Positions 1,787-29,084 of a DNA stretch of 32,716 nt are shown here, piece after piece. Under the pieces are notes generated by a model. The model did not search any database. It was not told the DNA's origin and saw only the letters and a program-made list of their open reading frames with translations. The stretch spans positions 1-32,716 of the forward strand of contig QMOK01000006.1 of assembly GCA_003648195.1 (NCBI GenBank). The letters are read 5' to 3'. Position 1 is the stretch's first letter. Every line of letters begins with the position of its first letter. Source of the stretch: Chloroflexota bacterium (GTDB lineage Bacteria; Chloroflexota; Anaerolineae; Anaerolineales; UBA11858). Made by a program: the position numbers and the translations under genes.

Positions 1787-1927
1787 CATTAACGAGGTAT
1801 AATAATTTGCCAAGTTTTCCTGAGTTGCTCAGAACTGGGCAGATGATTTATGAACCTTTTCATTTTCTCGGCGTTTCATTACGTCCACACTTGGACAATC
1901 TAAATAGTTGAACAAAACATACCAAAC

Positions 1928-4288
1928 ATGTACTCTTTCTATAGTCAAATTATTGATATTCTGACAACGCCACCAGGGAATCTTACCTACCACCTAGTGC
2001 TTGCTTTTGCGGCTGCGGGAGCATTGCAGGGCGCATTGCTCCATTGGCGTCAAAGCGAGTTTCCTCAGGGCCGGCGGATGGTTATTGGTTTGGGGCTTTT
2101 GCTAGTTGGACGGGCAATCCTTTTTGTGGGAGCTGGCCTGGTTTGGCAAGGGCTTACGCCGCCACAAACCCTGCTCCCAATTCTCGACCGAACCATTACC
2201 ATATTGGGTATTATTCTCATCATTTGGCTCTGGTGCTTCCCAGAGCCCCTTCAGGTGGCCGACATGGCCAGTATTCTGCTGGGGTTTGTTGCTTTAGCGA
2301 TAGCCATATTCAGCTACGTTTGGGGCTTAACGCAAACATCTGGGGTGCCATCTAATGCGGTGTGGTTCAATTCTCTTTGGGAAGGGGCTGCATTATTTAT
2401 TCTTATTCTTGGAATAGCATTGATACTCATCCGCCGCCCTAATGGTTGGGTATATGGTTTTGTGATGCTTGGAGTTATGACTTGTGGGCATGTTTTTCAA
2501 TTTTTCTTCCCCTCAGCGGCTAGTGATTTTCCCGGAATTGTGCGTCTTGCCCAAATAGCGGCTTATCCCTTGCTTTTTACTCTTCCCCAGCGATTTGTCC
2601 CCACCGAAAGTTCGTCAACGCCAGTTTCTTCACCTCAACATGCTTCTTACGTTCACAAACGCCAACAATACAATTTAGACCCCGCCTTACTGGATGATAT
2701 TGTTAGCATCTCGCCAGAAGTTCCCTTGGCCGACCTGCAATTGACCGTTACGAAATTGGCTTCCCAAATCATGTTGGCGGATTTGTGCCTTTTGATTTCT
2801 CCTCCCGACGAGATGGGGACGATAGAAATTATATGCGGATACGATCTTATTCGAGAAGAATTCCTTAGCGGCCTTTCTCTTCCGGGCGACCAACTTCCTC
2901 TTCTCTCTACTGCTATTCAAAGAGAGCAATCATTGCGTCTCCCTGCGAGCAGCACCTCTCAAGATTTCCGCAATCTTAGCAAACTTTTGCGCCTGGGACG
3001 GATAGGTCATTTGCTGGCAGCGCCTTGTATCTTTTCACACGTTGAGCAAAAAACCGGCCTAATTTTATTATCTCCTTACTCAAATCGCAGTTGGGGCAAA
3101 GTAGATCAAAAATACCTAAGCCGTTTTACAGAAGTGATTCAAAAAGCATTATCGCGAAATTCAGAAACTCCTAAACTGCGCGAGCAACTTGAACAGGCGC
3201 GCCAAATTATAATAAGCGCTAAAGCCGATTTAGAAGAAGCGAAACTATACGGGCAAGCTCTCCAAACAAAATTAGATATCAGCCAAGAAGAAATAAAAAC
3301 GCTCCAAGAAGTATCTCAAGAAATAGAGAGACTCCAACAAAAACAAACAGAAACATACGAAACAATAGCTAATTTAGAAGTTGATAAAAAACAACTCGAA
3401 GAACAACTTGAAGAATTCAATGAGCAAGCCTCTATTGCTTCTGATGAACAATTGCAAAGAGAGCTGCAATTAGCCTTAGAAGAAATTGCCCGTCTCAAAA
3501 ACATATTGGTAGAGTCTGACCAAAAGATTGGACAGATCAAAACCCAATCAAAGATAGAAAAAGGCATCTTATCCGATGCGCAAATGGAATCTATCTCAAA
3601 ACTGGCACAGGAGCTTCGGCAGCCTCTTGTCTCTATGGTGGGATATACTGACATTCTATTGGGGGAATCAGTGGGCATTTTAGGATCTTTACAAAAACAA
3701 TTTCTAGACCGCATCAAGGCCTCGGCTGAACGCATTGGAGGTTTGCTGGATACGGTATTAGAAAAAGCTGCCATCAATATAGAGGAACTCACTCTTGCCC
3801 CCAGCGCGGTAGATTTAAGTGATGCCATTGACTACGCCATCACCGAAGTAAGCGAGCATATTTGGAAAAAGCGAATCTCCATGCGAGTTGATTTGGCGGA
3901 TAATTTGCCAAAATTGCACACCGATGAAGACAGCCTTCGCCAAATACTCATCAACTTACTAAAAAACGCCAGCGATGTTACACCCGCCGAAGGAGAAATC
4001 TTCATCCGTGCCAGACTCTACGATGAATATAGCGAACAGAGTTTTGCGTTCATTCAAGTAGCAGACCAAGGCGGAGGTATTTCTGTCGAGGATTTGCCTC
4101 GTGTCTTCTCGCAGCTTTACAATAACAACACAAACATTAAAGGTATTGGCGGGCAAGGAATAGAACTCTCGGTTGTAAAAGCTCTTGTCGAAACCCAGCA
4201 AGGACGCATTTGGGTAGATAGCCAAGAGGGAGTGGGCGCGGCATTTAGCCTTTTGCTCCCCCTTGCGGATGATGAAAGAGATGCGTAA
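1928..4288 (+). CDS. Membrane histidine kinase-like protein (N-terminal TM region, GAF-like, coiled coil, HATPase) without the phosphoacceptor His
   Basis: Hydrophobic N-terminus, long coiled coil, LAQELRQPLVSMVGYTDILLGE in the H-box position, N box NLLKNA, G boxes DQGGGIS and GIGGQGIELSVVKALVE. Confidence 0.8.
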   Translation: MYSFYSQIIDILTTPPGNLTYHLVLAFAAAGALQGALLHWRQSEFPQGRRMVIGLGLLLVGRAILFVGAGLVWQGLTPPQTLLPILDRTITILGIILIIWLWCFPEPLQVADMASILLGFVALAIAIFSYVWGLTQTSGVPSNAVWFNSLWEGAALFILILGIALILIRRPNGWVYGFVMLGVMTCGHVFQFFFPSAASDFPGIVRLAQIAAYPLLFTLPQRFVPTESSSTPVSSPQHASYVHKRQQYNLDPALLDDIVSISPEVPLADLQLTVTKLASQIMLADLCLLISPPDEMGTIEIICGYDLIREEFLSGLSLPGDQLPLLSTAIQREQSLRLPASSTSQDFRNLSKLLRLGRIGHLLAAPCIFSHVEQKTGLILLSPYSNRSWGKVDQKYLSRFTEVIQKALSRNSETPKLREQLEQARQIIISAKADLEEAKLYGQALQTKLDISQEEIKTLQEVSQEIERLQQKQTETYETIANLEVDKKQLEEQLEEFNEQASIASDEQLQRELQLALEEIARLKNILVESDQKIGQIKTQSKIEKGILSDAQMESISKLAQELRQPLVSMVGYTDILLGESVGILGSLQKQFLDRIKASAERIGGLLDTVLEKAAINIEELTLAPSAVDLSDAIDYAITEVSEHIWKKRISMRVDLADNLPKLHTDEDSLRQILINLLKNASDVTPAEGEIFIRARLYDEYSEQSFAFIQVADQGGGISVEDLPRVFSQLYNNNTNIKGIGGQGIELSVVKALVETQQGRIWVDSQEGVGAAFSLLLPLADDERDA

Positions 4289-5133
4289 TGAAGATTTACC
4301 GTTATATAGCTATCGGGATAATCACAGCCCTCGTTTCTGGAGGGCTTGTTCTTGGCAGCATAGCTATTTCGCTCGCGGAAGGAAAAACCTCCCCGTCTTG
4401 GACTTCTGCTCTCTCTGAGCCTTCGCCGACCCCCAAACCGGTATCCATATCCCAAATAGGAATCACGCCTTCTGGCGTGGAGGGTGAGGCCCAATTGCCT
4501 ACGCCCGTCACTGCCCTAGAGCTTTCTGCTACTCCTCAGCCAACTTCTTGCCCTGTCCCTCTGGGATGGATGCCGATAATCGTTCGTCCGGGCGACACAC
4601 TTGAAAACCTTGCTGACGCCTATCACACCACTCCCGACTTGCTTGCGAGTGCCAACTGTTTGTTATCTTATCAAATATTCCCCGGATCAACATTATATGT
4701 GCCCCCTATAGGCCCCACCAAGACGCCATTTCAATGCGGCCCTCCCCCAGGCTGGATTCTTTATACCGTGCAAAAAGGCGATAATTTATATCGGCTAAGC
4801 CTTGCTTTTAGCACCACCATATGGCAATTGCAGGTGGCTAATTGTTTGGGTAATTCTGTGTATATTCGAGTGGGGCAGAGAATATATGTGCCCAACGTAC
4901 CCACCCTTACAATAATCCCTACGGGAACGTCAACCCCCACGCTTGTGCCCACGCTTGAGCCAACGTTTACTCCCACGTTTACGCCTACGCCAACAGATAC
5001 GCTAGAGCTTACTGCAACGCCTACAAGTTCTGTCACCCCTACCCCCACAGAAACGCCAACCTCCACTTCCACTCCTACTTCCACGTCTTCGCCTACATCC
5101 ACAGATACTACCACCCCATCCCCCACCCCATAA
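4288..5133 (+). CDS. LysM-repeat protein with N-terminal TM anchor and Thr/Pro/Ser-rich C-terminus
   Basis: Two LysM-like repeats (IIVRPGDTLENLADAYHTTPDLLASANCL; YTVQKGDNLYRLSLAFSTTIWQLQVANCL), then a TPTPT tract. Start overlaps the upstream stop. Confidence 0.8.
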   Translation: MKIYRYIAIGIITALVSGGLVLGSIAISLAEGKTSPSWTSALSEPSPTPKPVSISQIGITPSGVEGEAQLPTPVTALELSATPQPTSCPVPLGWMPIIVRPGDTLENLADAYHTTPDLLASANCLLSYQIFPGSTLYVPPIGPTKTPFQCGPPPGWILYTVQKGDNLYRLSLAFSTTIWQLQVANCLGNSVYIRVGQRIYVPNVPTLTIIPTGTSTPTLVPTLEPTFTPTFTPTPTDTLELTATPTSSVTPTPTETPTSTSTPTSTSSPTSTDTTTPSPTP

Positions 5134-5139
5134 TTAAAT

Positions 5140-6252
5140 ATGAAAAAACTCAGCAGGATTGTTACCCCACTTAAAATATTTCCCCTGCTTGTTATCGGCG
5201 TTTTTTTTGTTGCATGTCAGTCTGTGCCAAAACAGACCAGCGGAGCTAATACACCGCATGACGAAGAAGTTCTTGTGAGCACTGTCGAACACGCGGCTTC
5301 TGCTGATACCGAAGCCACGGTCACTCTTACCCCCTTTCAACCCTCTCCCCCCACGGCTACTTATTTACCCATAGACCCTAAATATACCCTTATTCCGCCT
5401 ACTCCGGGCGGTGAACTTCTTTACGACTATCTGTATCCCCCAGTCTACGAGCAGTCATATTTTCAGGTTCCCCTTATTCCCCAACCGAAAAATCAGGTTA
5501 ACGTTTTAGTACTAGGAACCGACCAATTTGGCGACCGCCACGGGTACCGAACAGACGCAATTATGCTGGTGACCATTAATAAAAAAGAAGATACAGTGCA
5601 TATCACCTCTTTTCCGCGAGACCTTTACGTATACATTCCCGGCTGGACAGTGCAGCGCATAAACACCGCTTATCCTTATGGGGGTTTTGAAGCTTTGGCC
5701 AACACCATGGAATATAATTTTGGTGTTCGTCCTGATTATTACGCCCTAATTCATGTCTCTTTTCTTGAAGATGTTGTTAATGACCTGGGTGGAATTACTG
5801 TGCAGGTAGAAAAAACACTGTGCGACCATCGCGCGGATTATAACGGGCAATATTGTCTTTACCCCGGTACGCGCTATATGGATGGGGCGACAGCCTTTTG
5901 GTACGCAAGGTCTCGGCACACATCAGAAAATGATTTTGGCCGTAATAGACGGCATCAGGAATTGTTGCGCGGAATTTTCGATCAGGCGTTGGAGGTCAAG
6001 GCGCTTACCAAAGTTCCTCAACTTTACCAAACCTACAAAGACAATGTCGATACAAATATGGGGTTAGGAATTGTTCTTAAGCTTCTTCCCACCGCCATAA
6101 AACTTCAAGACCAATCTCGCATTACCCAATATTACATTAGCCAAGACGATGTAATTAACTGGACAACAGGCGGCGGAGCGAGCGTTTTAATTCCTCAACC
6201 AAGGTTGGTGCGGGATGTTTTGCTTCAGGCGTTGAACAGCCCAGAGCAATAA
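5140..6252 (+). CDS. LytR-CpsA-Psr (LCP) family lipoprotein
   Basis: Lipobox-like VFFVACQ; LCP core VNVLVLGTDQFGDRHGYRTDAIMLVTINKKEDTVHITSFPRDLYVYIPGW...RINTAYPYGG. Confidence 0.85.
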   Translation: MKKLSRIVTPLKIFPLLVIGVFFVACQSVPKQTSGANTPHDEEVLVSTVEHAASADTEATVTLTPFQPSPPTATYLPIDPKYTLIPPTPGGELLYDYLYPPVYEQSYFQVPLIPQPKNQVNVLVLGTDQFGDRHGYRTDAIMLVTINKKEDTVHITSFPRDLYVYIPGWTVQRINTAYPYGGFEALANTMEYNFGVRPDYYALIHVSFLEDVVNDLGGITVQVEKTLCDHRADYNGQYCLYPGTRYMDGATAFWYARSRHTSENDFGRNRRHQELLRGIFDQALEVKALTKVPQLYQTYKDNVDTNMGLGIVLKLLPTAIKLQDQSRITQYYISQDDVINWTTGGGASVLIPQPRLVRDVLLQALNSPEQ

Positions 6253-6355
6253 TCAGGGATGTTTAGGAATCGCGTTCCCGCGCGTGGGCGCATGAGAAGT
6301 TCAGGCGGCAGGCAAACCATGAAGCGTGTTGCTCTTCCCCCGCGAATGAAAAGCA

Positions 6356-6404
6356 CTCGTGGTGCGTTGCATCTGTTTGTAGATGCGTTGCACCACGAGT
6401 TTTA
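6356..6404 (+). terminator. Rho-independent terminator candidate
   Basis: actcgtggtgc...gcaccacgagt, 11-bp perfect arm extended by catct/agatg, followed by TTTTA. Confidence 0.65.
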
Positions 6405-6437
6405 CTAACTTGCCTAGTCACTACGAAAAAGGACAAT

Positions 6438-7799
6438 ATGGATTATTTTATAAACCTCACACTGTCTTTAACGTCATTCTTCTTTTTAGCAGGCTTTGGC
6501 GCTTTTAGCGCGATCTCATGGCAAGAGAAAGAACAACGGGCGGCCAAATTAGCTATTCTTGTCGCTATTATTGGCTCCGCGCTTTTTGGGGGCATCATCT
6601 TCTTGCCCTCGCCTATCCCTCAAATAGCGGCGGGTTTGATTGCTTTGGGCGCGGCAACAGGCCTGGTGCTTTTCTTCCTCCCCATGGGGCGAATCGCCTC
6701 CGGACCAGACGCCCCCACCACGCGCGTAGACGAGAGGGAAATCATGTTCGCCCGCGCGAGGTTAGAGCCGGGCACCGAGAAATACGCCAATTACTACGCC
6801 GACCATCCCCATCACCAAACAGAAGACGACAAAACACGCGCCAAGCCGGGATTGCTTTCTCCTAAATCACGGTTAGCTAACCCCTACCATTTTGCCGCCA
6901 CGGATGCCAGCTTTTTCCTGACCGAAAGTCTGCGGGACGCGATTGATGGTTCGCCCGCGCCAGAACGGGTTGCTCTTCCCCCACGTGAGATGACCGCTTA
7001 CGTGAAAAACTTAGCCAAATTCTACGGCGCGTTAGATGTGGGAATCACAAAATTGGAGCCTTATCACGTTTATTCGCACATTGGGCGTGGAACAGGAACC
7101 TACGGAGCGCCAGTCTCGCTCACCCACACCTACGCGATTGCTTTCACGGTAGAAATGGATTTTGAGATGGTTCAGTCTGCGCCATCCCCGACCCTGACCA
7201 TGGAGTCGGCGAAAGAGTACGTAGAAGCGGCTCGCGTGGCCGTGCAATTGGCCGCCGCGCTGCGGGGAATGGGTTACTCTGCCCGCGCTCATATTGACGG
7301 CAATTATCGGGTGATTGCTCCCTTGGTGGCTCGTGACGCTGGTTTAGGCGAGATTGGGCGGATGAGCATTCTCATGACTCCGCGTCAGGGTCCGCGCGTT
7401 CGGGTGGGGGTGGTGACGACAAGCCTAGAGCTTATCCCAGACGAGCGCGAACTGAATGCCGCCATGATTGACTTTTGCAATATTTGTCAGAAATGCGCCA
7501 ATACTTGTCCCTCACGGGCCATCCCTTTTGGCGAGCGAGAGCTAAATAACGGCGCTCTGCGTTGGAAGCTCAACCCCGACCTGTGTTTTAGGTACTGGAG
7601 CATAATTGGCACCGATTGCGGGCGATGTATGTCTGTGTGCCCATTCTCTCATCCCGATAATTGGGCGCATAACTTTGTACGTTGGGGCATTATGCGTTCT
7701 GGCTTCTTCCGCCGCGCCGCCCTATGGATGGACGACTTTTTCTACGGGAAAAAGCCTGAAACGCGAGACGCGCCTGAGTGGACAAAGGTGGGTGTTTAA
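6438..7799 (+). CDS. Reductive dehalogenase-like (RdhA-like) protein with N-terminal transmembrane helices and two 4Fe-4S motifs
   Basis: Three hydrophobic N-terminal segments; C-terminal CNICQKCANTCP and CFRYWSIIGTDCGRCMSVCPF. Confidence 0.75.
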   Translation: MDYFINLTLSLTSFFFLAGFGAFSAISWQEKEQRAAKLAILVAIIGSALFGGIIFLPSPIPQIAAGLIALGAATGLVLFFLPMGRIASGPDAPTTRVDEREIMFARARLEPGTEKYANYYADHPHHQTEDDKTRAKPGLLSPKSRLANPYHFAATDASFFLTESLRDAIDGSPAPERVALPPREMTAYVKNLAKFYGALDVGITKLEPYHVYSHIGRGTGTYGAPVSLTHTYAIAFTVEMDFEMVQSAPSPTLTMESAKEYVEAARVAVQLAAALRGMGYSARAHIDGNYRVIAPLVARDAGLGEIGRMSILMTPRQGPRVRVGVVTTSLELIPDERELNAAMIDFCNICQKCANTCPSRAIPFGERELNNGALRWKLNPDLCFRYWSIIGTDCGRCMSVCPFSHPDNWAHNFVRWGIMRSGFFRRAALWMDDFFYGKKPETRDAPEWTKVGV

Positions 7800-9574: not shown

Positions 9575-9829
9575 ATGACCCAACTAAATCGAGAGAGCGT
9601 TCTAAAAACACTGCGCGGCTTTGAGGAAGTCAACCGCATCACCGAGGCTGAGAGACGTGAGCGGTTGGCGAATATGACCGATGAAGAAGCACGCGCTATT
9701 TTCGATGACCTCAACCAATCAATAGAAGAACTAACACCAGAGGAGAAAAAACGTCTGGAGCTATTTCGTTTGGAGCATCACTTAAAAGTTCGTAAAGCGA
9801 TGGCGAAAATGGGAAAGGCTAGGGTATGA
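9575..9829 (+). CDS. Small charged protein of unknown function, coupled to downstream nucleotidyltransferase
   Basis: 84-aa ORF with good RBS (GGAGG); ATGA overlap with the next ORF. Confidence 0.6.
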   Translation: MTQLNRESVLKTLRGFEEVNRITEAERRERLANMTDEEARAIFDDLNQSIEELTPEEKKRLELFRLEHHLKVRKAMAKMGKARV

Positions 9830-10398
9830 ATCCTCGTTTTGAAGCCGCCTGGGAAATTCATCAATTTCTGAAGCAACACAATGTCCCGTATGCTGTCATT
9901 GGGGGTGTGGCTGTCCAGAAATGGGGAGACCAACGTGCCACTCAAGATGTGGATATCTCGGTTGGCATATCTATAGAGGAAGGTTCCCAAAAACTTATCC
10001 AACTAATCATTGAGCACTTCTCCTCTCGTATAACAAACCCCGTTGAATTTGCCAAACAGACGCGCATGGTTCTGGTAAGAGCCAGCAACGGTATAGACGT
10101 AGATATTGCCCTAGCGTTGCCAGGCTATGAAGACCAGATGTTTGAACGCGCTGTTGAATATGAGTTGGAACAGGGGAAAGTCATCCAATTTTGTAGCGCA
10201 GAAGACCTTATCATTCATAAAGCCGTGGCTGGACGCCCCCAAGACGTGAGTGATATCCAGGGCATTGTCTACCGTCAGGGGGAAAATTTGGACTTGGATT
10301 ATATTCGTGGCTGGTTGAAAAAATTTGCCGATTTGTTGGGGGCACCAGAAGTTCCAGCACGATTCGAAGAGGCTTGGGAGCGATATCTAAGCCCCTAA
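9826..10398 (+). CDS. Nucleotidyltransferase (AbiEii/MNT-like fold)
   Basis: VPYAVIGGVAVQKWGDQRATQDVDISV matches the GGxA..xG..R.T.DvDi NTase signature. Confidence 0.7.
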   Translation: MNPRFEAAWEIHQFLKQHNVPYAVIGGVAVQKWGDQRATQDVDISVGISIEEGSQKLIQLIIEHFSSRITNPVEFAKQTRMVLVRASNGIDVDIALALPGYEDQMFERAVEYELEQGKVIQFCSAEDLIIHKAVAGRPQDVSDIQGIVYRQGENLDLDYIRGWLKKFADLLGAPEVPARFEEAWERYLSP

Positions 10399-22153: not shown

Positions 22154-24742
22154 TTATATCCACCGCCCTACATTTGCGTTTAACGTGCGATTAGTTACTT
22201 GTGCCAAAGTATCAACGGCGAATGGTTTGTGTATTACACCCAGGAACCCTGCTTCTTGTAATTCGTCCGCGTTTTTTTCCAACGCGTACCCTGTGATGCA
22301 CAACGCTTTTAGGTTTGGGTTTATCTTTCGTAATTCGTGTACCAATTCCTCGCCGCCCATTTTTGGCATTACTATATCGGCAATGACCAAATCAATGTTT
22401 TTTTCCGTTTTGTAAATTATTAATCCTTGTTGTCCATTCCTTGCTGTAAGCACTCGATAGCCCAATGATTCTAGGATACTCTGGCCTGCCTCGCGCAGGT
22501 TTTCATCATCTTCCACTAGCAGTATTTTTTCTCCATGTCCTTGTGGCACAGTTGAGGCTTCTTTAGTATTGTTATTTTCTCTTAATTCATCAGAGGCCGG
22601 CAGGTAAATATGGAACGTTGTCCCTTTTGCCAGCTTTGTTTCTACATCTATGTACCCTTCGTGTAGCCTAACGATGCCGTATACCTGCGCCAGACCTAAT
22701 CCTGTTCCTTTGTTTACTTCTTTGGTGGTAAAGAATGGCTCAAATATGTGATTGCGTACCTTTTCCGACATTCCTACCCCTGTATCTGTAACGGTCAGGT
22801 AAACCCATTTTCCGGGTGGCATATTTTTTATTGGTGGTGTGTCGTTGGGCGTGATTTCAACATGAGATAGTTCGAATCGTAATTCTCCGCCGTGTGGCTG
22901 TGCGTCACGAGCGTTAGTTGCCAGGTTGGTTAGCATCTGTTGAATGCGGCCTGAATCTGCTTGCACAATAAACTCGGATGATTGGTCTTTTGGCATTGTC
23001 TTTAGTGAGACCTGAATGTTTTCAGGGATTGTGCGTTGCAGTATGTTCATTGTGTTCTGGATGATGGTTTGCAGATTTAACGCTTGAACTTGAAGTAGTG
23101 AACTGCTGCTGAAATCTAGGATTTGCTGTATTAGGTCTGCTGCTTTTTTAGACTCACTAATGATGGTCTCAATGTTATACGTTAGCGTAGGTGGCAAATT
23201 GGGGGCAAGCAAAGACATTTGGGAGTAGAGGATGATGGTGGTTAGAAGATTGCGAAAGTCGTGGGCTATGCCCGCGGATAATTGCCCTACAGCGGCCAAT
23301 CGTTCCTGGCGTATCATTTGCTCTTGTGTCTCTTTCAATTTCGCTAGCGTTTCCCCTAGACGGGAATTGCTTTCCTGTAACGCTTTTAATGTAGCATCTC
23401 TCTCAGACTCTATTTGTACCCGCGCGGTTACATCTTGTTTGACAGCGGCATAGTTGATGATTTCACCGGCTGCGTTTTTGATGGGGAAAATGGTTGCTTC
23501 TTCGTGATACAGTTCCCCATTCTTTTTCTTGTTAATAAAAACACCTTTCCAGGTATTGCCAGTGGTGATGGTATCCCATAACTCTTTGTAGAATGAATCG
23601 TCTTGATCTCCGCTTTTTAAAATGCGGGGATTTTGGTTCAATGCCTCAGTTATGGTGTAGCCGGTACTAGTTTCAAAATAAGGGTTGGCGTAGATTATAT
23701 CTCCTTTTAAGTTGGTGATGACTATAGTCGCGGCAACTTGTTCAATCACGGTTGCTAAACGCGCTATTTCTGCCTCTGCTTGTTTACGCTTAGTGACATC
23801 GTGGATAAAGAGGGCAAAGCCGACAAGTTCACATTCTGCGTCGTAAATGCCTGATACCCGAGAATCGAAATAATGTATTCCATCTTCATGTTCTTGGGTA
23901 AACATGTAACGGTGCTCTCCGTGGGCGCGGACGTTTTTGACAGCTTTTTCGAATCGCTCTGGAGCCACCCGCTCTTTGGTGTGCATTTCTTGGACTGTTT
24001 TTCCAGTGACCTCTTTTGCTGTGTAACCAAATACTTGTTCGGCTAAAGGATTGTAATATGTAATATGAAAATTTAAATCGGTAGTGACAATAGCATACTC
24101 GGTGGAACCGCGCAAAATATTGTCTAAGAGCGTGCTTTTTTGCGATAGCCGTATTTCTGCCTGCTTACGTTCGGTAATGTCAGAATGAGTGCCTACGAAA
24201 CGTGTTGGATTACCGTCTTTGTCATGGGCTACAACCTTGCCTCTCCCTTGTATCCAAATCCAAGTACCGTTTTTGTGAGCAAACTGGAATTCCACGTTAA
24301 ATCTGTCAAATTTTCCTTTTAAGTGATCGTTGGCCGTCTTCATTACCTTTTCAATAGCATTCGGGTGTACCCGCTTTTGAAATTCTTCTAAAGTATGTGG
24401 AAACTCGTTAATTTCATAACCGGCCATCGTATAATATCGTGGGTCAAAATAGACTTTATTCGTTGTTAAATCCCAGTCCCATAGCCCATCGTTCGCAACC
24501 GACATGGCTAAATTGAGACGTTCTTCGCTTTTCTGCAGCGCCTCTAACGCGGCCTTTTTTTGATACTCCGCTTGCTTACGCTTGGTAATATCCCGAAAGG
24601 CCAGCACAACGCCGGTAATAACTCCTTCCTCATCCCGAATAGGAGCGATACTGTCATCAATAGGTGTCTTAGTTCCGCTTTTGTTGACCAATAGAATGTG
24701 ATTCGCCAAATCACCTACAGTCTCCCCCTGAAGCACTCGCAT
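22154..24742 (-). CDS. Multi-PAS hybrid histidine kinase with C-terminal receiver, 3' part of an ORF split by UGA
   Basis: Several PAS/PAC units (DITERKQAE, DVTKRKQAE), IAHDFRNLLTTI, HATPase, REC KILLVEDDENLREAG...VIADIVMPKMGGEEL. Confidence 0.85.
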   Translation of the reverse strand: MRVLQGETVGDLANHILLVNKSGTKTPIDDSIAPIRDEEGVITGVVLAFRDITKRKQAEYQKKAALEALQKSEERLNLAMSVANDGLWDWDLTTNKVYFDPRYYTMAGYEINEFPHTLEEFQKRVHPNAIEKVMKTANDHLKGKFDRFNVEFQFAHKNGTWIWIQGRGKVVAHDKDGNPTRFVGTHSDITERKQAEIRLSQKSTLLDNILRGSTEYAIVTTDLNFHITYYNPLAEQVFGYTAKEVTGKTVQEMHTKERVAPERFEKAVKNVRAHGEHRYMFTQEHEDGIHYFDSRVSGIYDAECELVGFALFIHDVTKRKQAEAEIARLATVIEQVAATIVITNLKGDIIYANPYFETSTGYTITEALNQNPRILKSGDQDDSFYKELWDTITTGNTWKGVFINKKKNGELYHEEATIFPIKNAAGEIINYAAVKQDVTARVQIESERDATLKALQESNSRLGETLAKLKETQEQMIRQERLAAVGQLSAGIAHDFRNLLTTIILYSQMSLLAPNLPPTLTYNIETIISESKKAADLIQQILDFSSSSLLQVQALNLQTIIQNTMNILQRTIPENIQVSLKTMPKDQSSEFIVQADSGRIQQMLTNLATNARDAQPHGGELRFELSHVEITPNDTPPIKNMPPGKWVYLTVTDTGVGMSEKVRNHIFEPFFTTKEVNKGTGLGLAQVYGIVRLHEGYIDVETKLAKGTTFHIYLPASDELRENNNTKEASTVPQGHGEKILLVEDDENLREAGQSILESLGYRVLTARNGQQGLIIYKTEKNIDLVIADIVMPKMGGEELVHELRKINPNLKALCITGYALEKNADELQEAGFLGVIHKPFAVDTLAQVTNRTLNANVGRWI

Positions 24743-24763
24743 TGCTGGATTTTCTATTGGTTT

Positions 24764-25351
24764 TCACGAAATTTCGTTGACAACGTGAAATACCTCGGCC
24801 AAATCACGCCCCACCGCATCTGCCTGCTTCCACCCGGTCAACCCTTCGGCCACGGGATTTATAAATATTATTTGCCCAATATTGTCGGTGGCTATTACCG
24901 CGTCTCCAATGCTGTGTAATGTTGCATTAAGCCATTGCTCGCTTTCTTTTAACCTGGTCTCTAGTTTATGTCTATAAAGTGCCATCTCAATGGTAGTGAG
25001 CAATTCTCTCCCATTGATAGGTTTTATGGTGTAACCAAACGGTTCGGTAAGTTTAGCTCGCTGCAAAATTGCATCGTCTGAAAAATCGGTTAAGTAGATT
25101 ACGGGGATATTGAAATGGCATTGAATCTGGTGAGTCGCTTCAATGCCGTCCACTTCTCCTTTCAACTTGATGTCCATCAATACAATATCTGGCAGCATTT
25201 TACCAGCCTGTCGTACTACTTCCTCGCCGGAGGTGACGATACCCAAAACGTTGTAACCTAAAGATGTCAGCGTATTCCGGATACTTTTGCCTACAATGAG
25301 TTCGTCTTCGGCAATTAGTATCCGCGTTTCTATCTCATTATTTTCATTCAC
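24764..25351 (-). CDS. Receiver plus PAS protein, 5' part of the UGA-split hybrid kinase
   Basis: REC RILIAEDELIVGKSIRNTL...DIVLMDIKLKGEVDGIEA, PAS, ends VVNEIS*; same frame as the 24742 ORF. Confidence 0.8.
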   Translation of the reverse strand: MNENNEIETRILIAEDELIVGKSIRNTLTSLGYNVLGIVTSGEEVVRQAGKMLPDIVLMDIKLKGEVDGIEATHQIQCHFNIPVIYLTDFSDDAILQRAKLTEPFGYTIKPINGRELLTTIEMALYRHKLETRLKESEQWLNATLHSIGDAVIATDNIGQIIFINPVAEGLTGWKQADAVGRDLAEVFHVVNEIS

Positions 25352-26004: not shown

Positions 26005-28347
26005 TTAGTCTTGGTTTATATCTAAGCAGAGCGGCATACCGATAGTATCGTCCAGAATCACGTCAGGGAATGTCGGGTCTTCGTCCGGGAATGAGCCGAT
26101 TCCGTGATACATTTCTAGAAACTCGGGCACGGCAAAGACCACTTCGTGCATGTAGGTGCGTTGCTGCTGCTCAGCGAACAGCGCCGCTTCTTGCACCGAG
26201 ACGCAGCCATCACCATCACTGTCGGCAGATTTGTCGCTGAATGCGATGTTGAAATAATGGGTAAACACCCCGCCTATAATGGGCAGTCCTTCCTCTTCTA
26301 AGCCGCTCCAGCCGTACTCGTCCCCATCTACTGCCGCGATGCTTAGGTAGGGCGCCGGGTCGTTAGCGACCACGCCGGTGAAATTGGCGGCCTGACAGGC
26401 GTCTATGACCAATACTCGCCGCCGGCTGGGGATTTTTTCCCACGCGTCAGCGAAGAAGTTGTTCCACTCTAGCACATCGCTTAGGTAACGCCCGTGCGCG
26501 GCCACGTAGACCAGCACCACGTCTTCTTCGGCGGCGTTTTCTGCCAGCCAATCCAAATCATCTCGCAGCGTTTCCCCATCAAACTCCTTTAGCTCGTGGA
26601 TATGTTTGGGATTCCAACCTGCATTTATCAATATCTCTCGCATTTGTGTGATGCCAATATAGTCTACCGGCAGGTCGGTCATGTTGACGTCGCTGTAGTC
26701 GTCTTTTTGTGCCAGCACCGCCCATCCCGTGAATCTCCCGCCATTGCTAGTTTGGTTAGAAGAAGTCGGAGTGGGGGCATTTTCTTTGTCATAGACCCAA
26801 TCTAGGAATAATTTGGTCAGATCGCATTGGCAATGCTGTTCGGCTAATGCCCAAAACGCCGTGCCTGTGCCAATATCCCATTTGTAAGTTTGGTAGTAGT
26901 CGCGCAGGAAGATGTCAAAGGTCTTTTGCCCCATCTCTTCTGCCAGGGTTTGGATGAAGATTGGCCCGCGCCCGTAGACGATGGCTCCATATTCTCTGCC
27001 CTCATAATCACCAGCGGGCAGGCCAATGGGGATGTCGGCGTAATCAACACGGCTCCAGCGGTAATCCCACGAATCGCGATAATCTTCGGCGGCGAAATTG
27101 CTGTATCTGTCTTCAAAGTAGAGACCGGTGAGGTATTGTACAATGGCTTCATCTACCCAGGGTTCGCCCATTTGGTCATTGCCAACGGCGTTGTAGAACC
27201 ATTGGTGACCGACTTCGTGCGCGATGACGGATTCCATCATCACCGCGGCTGGTAAACCGCCTATTTCCGCGTTGAGGTCGTAAACGCCAAGGGTGATGCC
27301 CGTCATGCCAGGATATTCAATCCCCAGCGCTTGCATGGGTGTGCTGGCAACGTCAAACTCTGTGTATGGATAGGTGCCGAAGCGGTCGCTAAAAACGTTT
27401 AGCGCATGGGACGCAATTTCTAGGGCCAGATTCCCTGCTTTTTGGTATTCGGCAAAGGTGTAGCTGTTGACTATTGTGTCTCCCACTCTATTGCTGACCT
27501 TGACGTAGTGCTCGCTGGCAGCGAGGTAAAAATCACGGGCAGGGCCAGCGGCAATGGTTACTATTTGTTGGTCTCCCTCTTGCTTGTTATTTATCTCTAC
27601 GCCAGGAGCAACGATGATTAAGTCTGCGGGAGCGGTGACGCGCACTAGGTAAAAGCTGGCGTCAAAGTATGAGAGATCGCCGTTGGAGTAGGGGGCGTAG
27701 GCGTACCATCCATCTTCATCGTAGGCGGGAACGGCGGGGTAGAATTCGTCTAAGACCAGCACTTCTTCAAAGTAGCCGAATAAACCATAGTTGCCGGCCA
27801 TTGTGCGCGTTACGGTTACTTCAAAATCCATTTCGATGATGGCACGTTCGCCGGGTTGCAGTGCGCTTGGGAGAGGCACACGGAGCGAGCTGTTTTTCGC
27901 TTCGTAGGCGGATTCAACATCCGCGCCATCTACTTTTACATTAGAGACGGTCAACCCTCCGCCAGAGGTGTTCGGGAAGAGGCGGAAATAAACTTCGTTG
28001 AGTGGTTCATTTTCCTGGTTGGTGTAACGCAGTTCCTGATGGCCTTGGAGGACATCTAGCCCGGCGGGGATTTCCAGCTCAATATGGTAGATGGTCGCGC
28101 CTGGGAGTTGCTCGAGTACGGGCTGTTCGGCGTTGATAAGCCCCGTGCTGAAGACCTCGCGATCGTCCCAGCCTGCTTCAAAGGGATCGGACGCAACGGA
28201 CGCGGGTTCAACTTCTGTGGGGGAGGGTGATGTCAGAACCTCTGGCGCTGGGGTGGGTTCGGCCTGTTTGCACCCTCCTAGCAAGGCTATGATAGCCATT
28301 GCGGCAGCGATGAGGTGCATGAAGTGTTTTGGGCGTTGGGTGGACAT
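26005..28347 (-). CDS. Lipoprotein: M1-family metallopeptidase fused to caspase-like domain with EF-hand-like loop
   Basis: Lipobox LLGGCKQ; HEVGHQWFYNAVGNDQMGEPWVDE (HExxH-x18-E); caspase-like LVYVAAHG and VLVIDACQAA; DSDGDGCVSVQEA. Confidence 0.8.
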   Translation of the reverse strand: MSTQRPKHFMHLIAAAMAIIALLGGCKQAEPTPAPEVLTSPSPTEVEPASVASDPFEAGWDDREVFSTGLINAEQPVLEQLPGATIYHIELEIPAGLDVLQGHQELRYTNQENEPLNEVYFRLFPNTSGGGLTVSNVKVDGADVESAYEAKNSSLRVPLPSALQPGERAIIEMDFEVTVTRTMAGNYGLFGYFEEVLVLDEFYPAVPAYDEDGWYAYAPYSNGDLSYFDASFYLVRVTAPADLIIVAPGVEINNKQEGDQQIVTIAAGPARDFYLAASEHYVKVSNRVGDTIVNSYTFAEYQKAGNLALEIASHALNVFSDRFGTYPYTEFDVASTPMQALGIEYPGMTGITLGVYDLNAEIGGLPAAVMMESVIAHEVGHQWFYNAVGNDQMGEPWVDEAIVQYLTGLYFEDRYSNFAAEDYRDSWDYRWSRVDYADIPIGLPAGDYEGREYGAIVYGRGPIFIQTLAEEMGQKTFDIFLRDYYQTYKWDIGTGTAFWALAEQHCQCDLTKLFLDWVYDKENAPTPTSSNQTSNGGRFTGWAVLAQKDDYSDVNMTDLPVDYIGITQMREILINAGWNPKHIHELKEFDGETLRDDLDWLAENAAEEDVVLVYVAAHGRYLSDVLEWNNFFADAWEKIPSRRRVLVIDACQAANFTGVVANDPAPYLSIAAVDGDEYGWSGLEEEGLPIIGGVFTHYFNIAFSDKSADSDGDGCVSVQEAALFAEQQQRTYMHEVVFAVPEFLEMYHGIGSFPDEDPTFPDVILDDTIGMPLCLDINQD

Positions 28348-28556: not shown

Positions 28557-29084
28557 TTAAGTATTGGTCTGACCGATTGCCTCCAATTGCCCCAAAACGT
28601 GTTCAGTCCCGCATTTTTTTGCCCGCCAATAGAGGTAGTCCCAATCTATAAGGGTGAAGACATTCCCCAGCATAGCTTCTACATCCTCCCAGTCGTGTTT
28701 CCCCACCTCTGTGCCGCGCCCCCATATAGCTTTGAGCAAGATGTTGTCTTCAGGAGGGATGACGGGGGCAATGACGCCCGCGACCTCATACCAATCCAAT
28801 CTTTCAGCCATCGCTTTGTCTAAATCTATGACATCCAATCCGGCGATGATGTCAATATTTGGCAATTTGATTCCCCGTACAGAGCCATCCCTTTGCCGCT
28901 CTACACGCGCTTCGGGAAAGAGAGCGGCTAATTGGTCTCCCTCCGTGGATGGGATTAGAATGTCCACATCGGTCAGCAGGCGGTGAGACCCGTAAACTGA
29001 GGCAGCCGCTCCCGCAAATACGCACCAGGTTATTTTTGCTTCGTCTAAACGGCGGGCGACTTCTTTTAGAGGTAGTGAGTTCAT
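28557..29084 (-). CDS. Nucleotidyltransferase-fold protein
   Basis: WCVFAGAAASVYGSHRLLTDVDILIPS. Confidence 0.65.
   Translation of the reverse strand: MNSLPLKEVARRLDEAKITWCVFAGAAASVYGSHRLLTDVDILIPSTEGDQLAALFPEARVERQRDGSVRGIKLPNIDIIAGLDVIDLDKAMAERLDWYEVAGVIAPVIPPEDNILLKAIWGRGTEVGKHDWEDVEAMLGNVFTLIDWDYLYWRAKKCGTEHVLGQLEAIGQTNT

Follow-up and report, generated by a model that had tools for sequence, protein, structure and literature searches.

A predicted lipoprotein from a Chloroflexota bacterium joins an M1 aminopeptidase to a caspase-fold C14 domain

The window, the whole stretch of DNA analysed here, comprises 32,716 nucleotides of contig QMOK01000006.1 from a draft genome of a Chloroflexota bacterium (GCA_003648195.1). 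Its reverse strand carries an open reading frame of 780 codons, the translation of which revealed no internal stop (Table 1). The N-terminus of the encoded protein, LIAAAMAIIALLGGC, contains a hydrophobic segment closed by a lipobox cysteine. This assignment was made by motif match and predicts an exported lipoprotein. Pfam and fold searches located two unrelated protease folds on the chain, an M1 aminopeptidase followed by a C14-like domain, as had been proposed in a preliminary description of this DNA, which also gave the exact positions of the HEVGH motif and of the catalytic-type His and Cys codons. The anatomy by itself, M1 and C14 on one predicted lipoprotein, is regarded as almost certain.

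Table 1. Features of the M1-C14 open reading frame, in positions of the window.
Feature	Positions	Strand	Basis
Predicted lipoprotein, 780 aa: two-domain M1 aminopeptidase and C-terminal C14-like (caspase-fold) domain	26005..28347	-	ORF/translation, Pfam, fold search
Lipobox LLGGC, residues 22-26, closing the N-terminal hydrophobic segment	28270..28284	-	motif match
M1 N-terminal beta-rich domain, about residues 57-307	27427..28179	-	AF2 full-length model, fold match 6iff
M1 catalytic domain, residues 308-517	26797..27426	-	Pfam PF01433
GIEYPG at the position of the GxMEN exopeptidase motif, residues 342-347	27307..27324	-	alignment of 25 homologues
Zinc site HEVGH-x18-E, residues 377-400	27148..27219	-	HEVGH 27205-27219; conservation
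Ser/Thr/Pro/Asn-rich linker between the M1 and C14 domains, residues 521-537	26737..26787	-	pLDDT; homologue ends
C14-like caspase-fold domain, residues 538-780	26008..26736	-	Pfam C14, own-family profile, fold search
Catalytic-type His618 (VAAHG), codon CAC	26494..26496	-	invariant in 13 aligned C14 domains
Catalytic-type Cys651 (IDACQAA), codon TGT; Asp649 at Cys-2	26395..26397	-	invariant in 13 aligned C14 domains
12-residue EF-hand-type loop DSDGDGCVSVQE, residues 709-720	26188..26223	-	alignment

The M1 half was identified by the Pfam family Peptidase_M1 (E 2.1e-14, 54.1 bits versus a cut-off of 27.7). The HExxH-x18-E zinc motif named in the preliminary description was corroborated by this match and by an alignment of 25 M1 homologues, in which H377, E378, H381 and E400 were invariant. 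The same alignment revealed invariant residues in the GIEYPG segment (G342, E344, Y345, P346 and G347); compared with GxMEN, the Glu is kept whereas the Met and the Asn are not. In the full-length AF2 model residues 57-520 showed pLDDT values mostly above 90, with values mostly between 75 and 97 in the N-terminal domain. A fold search with the M1 model yielded 6iff as the best PDB match (E 9.7e-27, TM 0.74 by target length), and the best PDB sequence match of the M1 half was 6a8z, the M1 enzyme of Deinococcus radiodurans. Thus, the M1 half belongs to the short kind of M1 enzyme, without the C-terminal domains of the large M1s. It shares this two-domain layout with the D. radiodurans enzyme M1dr (PDB 6a8z, 6iff and 6kp0) at an identity of about 20%; M1dr, unlike the window protein, carries no caspase-fold domain. 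In the M1 tree the nearest relatives were the M1s of loci L010, L011 and L014, and the M1s of the window's own genus were more distant, which suggests that this M1 was acquired from elsewhere.

Homologues of the M1 half were collected from 84,980 species genomes (80 loci, the best 80 of 171 relatives) and from 61 related whole genomes. Apart from the window, about 95 M1 homologues, some loci being counted from two sources, end 0-27 residues from the end of the M1 domain and terminate at the position of the linker, which is predicted to be disordered (pLDDT below 50 at residues 527-542 of the full-length model). No second M1-C14 fusion was found among the best 80 of the 171 relatives or in the 61 related genomes. 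Loci L011 and L014, obtained as candidate full-length fusions by tblastn (query residues 12-778), were rejected, as each consists of separate neighbouring open reading frames.

The C-terminal domain is divergent, since a Pfam scan with the full-length 780-residue query reported no C14 match and the match was recovered by scanning the C-terminal 245 residues alone (Peptidase_C14, PF00656; E 7.9e-7, 29.4 bits, cut-off 21.4). Other members of the same family scored 26.3, 16.8 or 15.2 bits against this model, near or below the cut-off, or gave no match. The family's own profile covers the whole domain of the window protein. The nearest named caspase profile was that of an NCBIfam caspase subfamily, NF047832 (caspase, EACC1-associated; E 1e-9), where the score of 38.2 bits lies under the model cut-off of 140 and the alignment is good in the first third only. 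When PDB sequences were searched with a profile of the C14 family, all matches were at chance level, and only the comparison of folds was successful. The C14 half of the full-length AF2 model was poor because one sequence covered that half. A separate model of the domain, built from 3 sequences and with a pLDDT of 71, gave 23 PDB fold matches at E<=1e-3 and a TM of about 0.5, all of which belong to clan CD (MALT1, caspases, plant metacaspases and asparaginyl endopeptidase). In this model His618 ends strand 78-85 and Cys651 lies just past strand 111-117, in agreement with a dyad of His and then Cys at the ends of beta3 and beta4. Both residues were invariant in all six family members and in seven of seven distant bacterial C14 homologues. 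The caspase fold with a His/Cys dyad that the preliminary description had read from the motifs was therefore upheld by Pfam, by fold search and by conservation.

The residue at Cys-2 is acidic throughout the family (D/D/D/E/D/D in the six members). We take Asp211 of TbMCA2 to sit at the same position. This Asp211 is a proposed S1-pocket residue (PMC4357240). Based on the acidic Cys-2 residue the C14 domain probably cuts after basic residues. This P1 specificity is uncertain, since the family lacks a loop segment that other bacterial C14 domains carry after the catalytic His, and since the position of the second acidic S1 residue (Asp95 of TbMCA2) is not conserved and aligns poorly with the family. 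Bacterial metacaspases and orthocaspases of family C14 have the caspase fold, the His/Cys dyad, the acidic Cys-2 residue and, in most of the homologues aligned, an EF-type loop in common with the window protein; the latter differs in its shortened post-His loop, a unique C-terminal extension and predicted export together with an M1 domain. On a single 7-kb Chloroflexota contig (L127 of G424) three bacterial C14 caspase-like genes were observed on one strand at 1912-7183.

The EF-type loop DSDGDGCVSVQE exhibits the full EF-loop pattern and is retained in 6 of 6 members of the C14 family. A loop of this type was also found at the same place in most of the unfused distant bacterial C14 homologues aligned. 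Consequently, it represents a common feature of C14 domains and not a special device or gate of the fusion: the Ca-binding-type loop of the preliminary description is present and conserved, but it is not special to the fused protein. Binding of Ca2+ through this loop is possible for C14 domains in general, and many metacaspases require calcium (PMC4357240). The preliminary description had suggested self-processing, calcium gating or a proteolytic cascade. In a calcium-gated self-processing the C14 domain would bind Ca2+ through the loop, cut the linker or the C-terminus of the M1 domain and thereby release or switch the aminopeptidase. An intact loop with helices on both flanks in the model, the disordered linker and a K-E site ahead of it (WVYDKENAP) would agree with such a process, as would the calcium requirement of metacaspases. 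However, the loop is shared with unfused homologues, and related M1s naturally end at the same spot without a protease, so that the M1 domain needs no release. Moreover, conserved cleavage sites are absent from type I metacaspases (PMC4357240). Self-processing is considered unlikely.

The M1-C14 fusion was observed once, in one draft genome with 5.1% contamination, and no second M1-C14 fusion was found in the search described above. Such a situation could also arise from an assembly artefact joining two genes, the objection already foreseen in the preliminary description; the order of C14 before M1 in loci L011 and L014, the reverse of that in the fusion, would be in line with it. Against a chimera stands the continuous 780-codon frame with the linker in frame. 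Both sides of the junction are alike in GC and GC3 (0.529/0.596 versus 0.538/0.627), and genes on both sides of the same contig have same-genus orthologues (MurJ with 83%, a histidine kinase with 64% and a metallo-beta-lactamase with 55-58% identity). A C14-family profile run over the source genome detected one copy only, that of the window, and hence no other copy was found to recombine with. A six-frame search of the same genome revealed no other C14 gene; it also missed the divergent domain of the window and is thus insensitive to such members. For a comparison of synteny with the nearest relative, G304, the contig of the latter ends before reaching the site. Matched base composition, same-genus orthologues on both flanks and the lack of a second C14-family copy in the search make an assembly chimera unlikely, and we assign it a very low probability.

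The distribution of the C14 family was determined with profiles run over 396 class-level, 21 family-level and 400 order-level genomes and by a sequence search of 301 phylum-level genomes. Among these the family was present in five genomes only, and a contig scan of the species genomes added a sixth (L011). The viral contigs searched contained no relatives. The C14 family is small, sparse and previously unnamed, with six loci in Chloroflexota bacteria: the window, L011, L119/L125, L014/L126, G303 and G818. Both the M1 enzymes and the C14 proteins of bacteria are well known. An M1-caspase fusion is not described in the open-access texts searched, and no metallopeptidase appears in the text of a survey that covers 671 prokaryotic metacaspases and lists 71 Pfam domain types (PMC3501461).

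Enzymes of the Peptidase_MA clan were found fused to or near the C14 family at four of the six loci. Besides the fusion to M1 in the window, the C14 domain forms the C-terminus of a DUF885 lipoprotein at L011 (from Thermoflexia), where M1 is the next gene, and is again fused to DUF885 at L119/L125. DUF885 itself is counted among the zinc metallopeptidases of the Peptidase_MA clan (PMC12572635). The two DUF885-C14 lipoproteins (open reading frames 3147-5735 of L011 and 6987-9674 of L125) belong to the same C14 family with 57-68% identity to the window; like the window protein they carry C14 at the C-terminus of an exported-type Peptidase_MA-clan protein, with DUF885 instead of M1 as the partner. 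At L014/L126 a lone C14 lipoprotein is encoded two genes upstream of M1 on the same strand, with a DUF3795 gene in between. A gene for a beta-lactamase-fold lipoprotein follows on this strand (L014, 4812-7815; L126, 7976-12202), and the whole may form an exported hydrolase operon. In G303, of the same genus as the window, the C14-family lipoprotein differs in its N-terminal region, and that of G818 stands alone. Neither has a metallopeptidase neighbour within the stretch read, which shows that the pairing is not obligatory. The N-terminal region of the G303 protein (L109, 4178-5467, reverse strand) comprises about 100 residues that match no Pfam family. In summary, the search for further examples of the fusion noted in the preliminary description yielded no exact M1-C14 counterpart, but it uncovered a recurrent linkage of the C14 family to Peptidase_MA enzymes. 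The relevant forks in the M1 tree and in the C14-family tree were not resolved, and therefore the number and order of fusions are not claimed.

Linkage to a zinc peptidase at four of six loci and with two different partners argues for a functional coupling. It also weighs against a coincidental fusion, in which two exported proteins were joined and still act separately. The fusion was seen once, and L014 has both domains as separate proteins from nearby genes, as would be expected in that case; in view of the recurrent linkage to MA-clan lipoproteins we nevertheless hold coincidence to be quite improbable.

Discussions of bacterial caspase homologues usually concern cell death, stress or phage conflict. 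The C14 domain might serve regulation and not bulk degradation, either by sensing or modulating the metallopeptidase beside it or by cutting one specific envelope substrate during stress or cell death. Its pairing with different MA enzymes (M1, DUF885) would be expected of a shared regulator, and clan CD peptidases typically have a strict P1 specificity (PMC4357240). On the other hand, no signalling, adaptor or defence partner and no PADLOC match was detected, the Pfam scan found no NACHT, TPR or WD40 domain on the chain, and two members of the C14 family stand alone. A regulatory role is likewise considered unlikely.

The explanation which we prefer, with slightly less than even confidence in the whole of it, combines the anatomy and the recurrent MA linkage with a stepwise degradation of extracellular or envelope protein by a membrane-tethered endopeptidase and aminopeptidase. 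The window protein would be an exported, membrane-anchored lipoprotein with two proteases in tandem, the M1 zinc aminopeptidase being placed near the membrane and the C14 cysteine endopeptidase at the far end of a short flexible linker. Proteins outside the cell or in the envelope would be cut internally by the C14 domain, probably behind basic residues, and the M1 domain would trim the N-termini so created, releasing amino acids for turnover or uptake. More tentatively, the C14 family may be a hitherto undescribed group of exported caspase-fold proteases that serves as an add-on module for surface enzymes of the Peptidase_MA clan in Chloroflexota; fused to or in an operon with M1 or DUF885, it would form protein-degrading lipoproteins of the cysteine and zinc type which act in extracellular degradation and not in cell death. 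The pairing of zinc peptidases with a caspase-fold family that has N-termini of the lipoprotein type renders a role in extracellular or envelope protein degradation testable, and the window protein represents an unusual natural two-protease chain.

Further observations were made in the window outside this gene. On the reverse strand at 22154-25351 a single in-frame stop (24764-24766) splits an apparent response regulator-PAS-histidine kinase-receiver hybrid gene. Its PAS domain runs across the stop, and the region may be a pseudogene, contain a sequencing error or comprise two genes. The open reading frames at 9826-10398 (forward strand) and 28557-29084 (reverse strand) match nucleotidyltransferase families of unknown function (DUF6036/DUF2204; NTP_transf_5 below the cut-off). 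Finally, a 4Fe-4S protein encoded at 6438-7799 on the forward strand gave a sub-threshold match to the Pfam reductive dehalogenase subunit (22.0 versus 24.3 bits).
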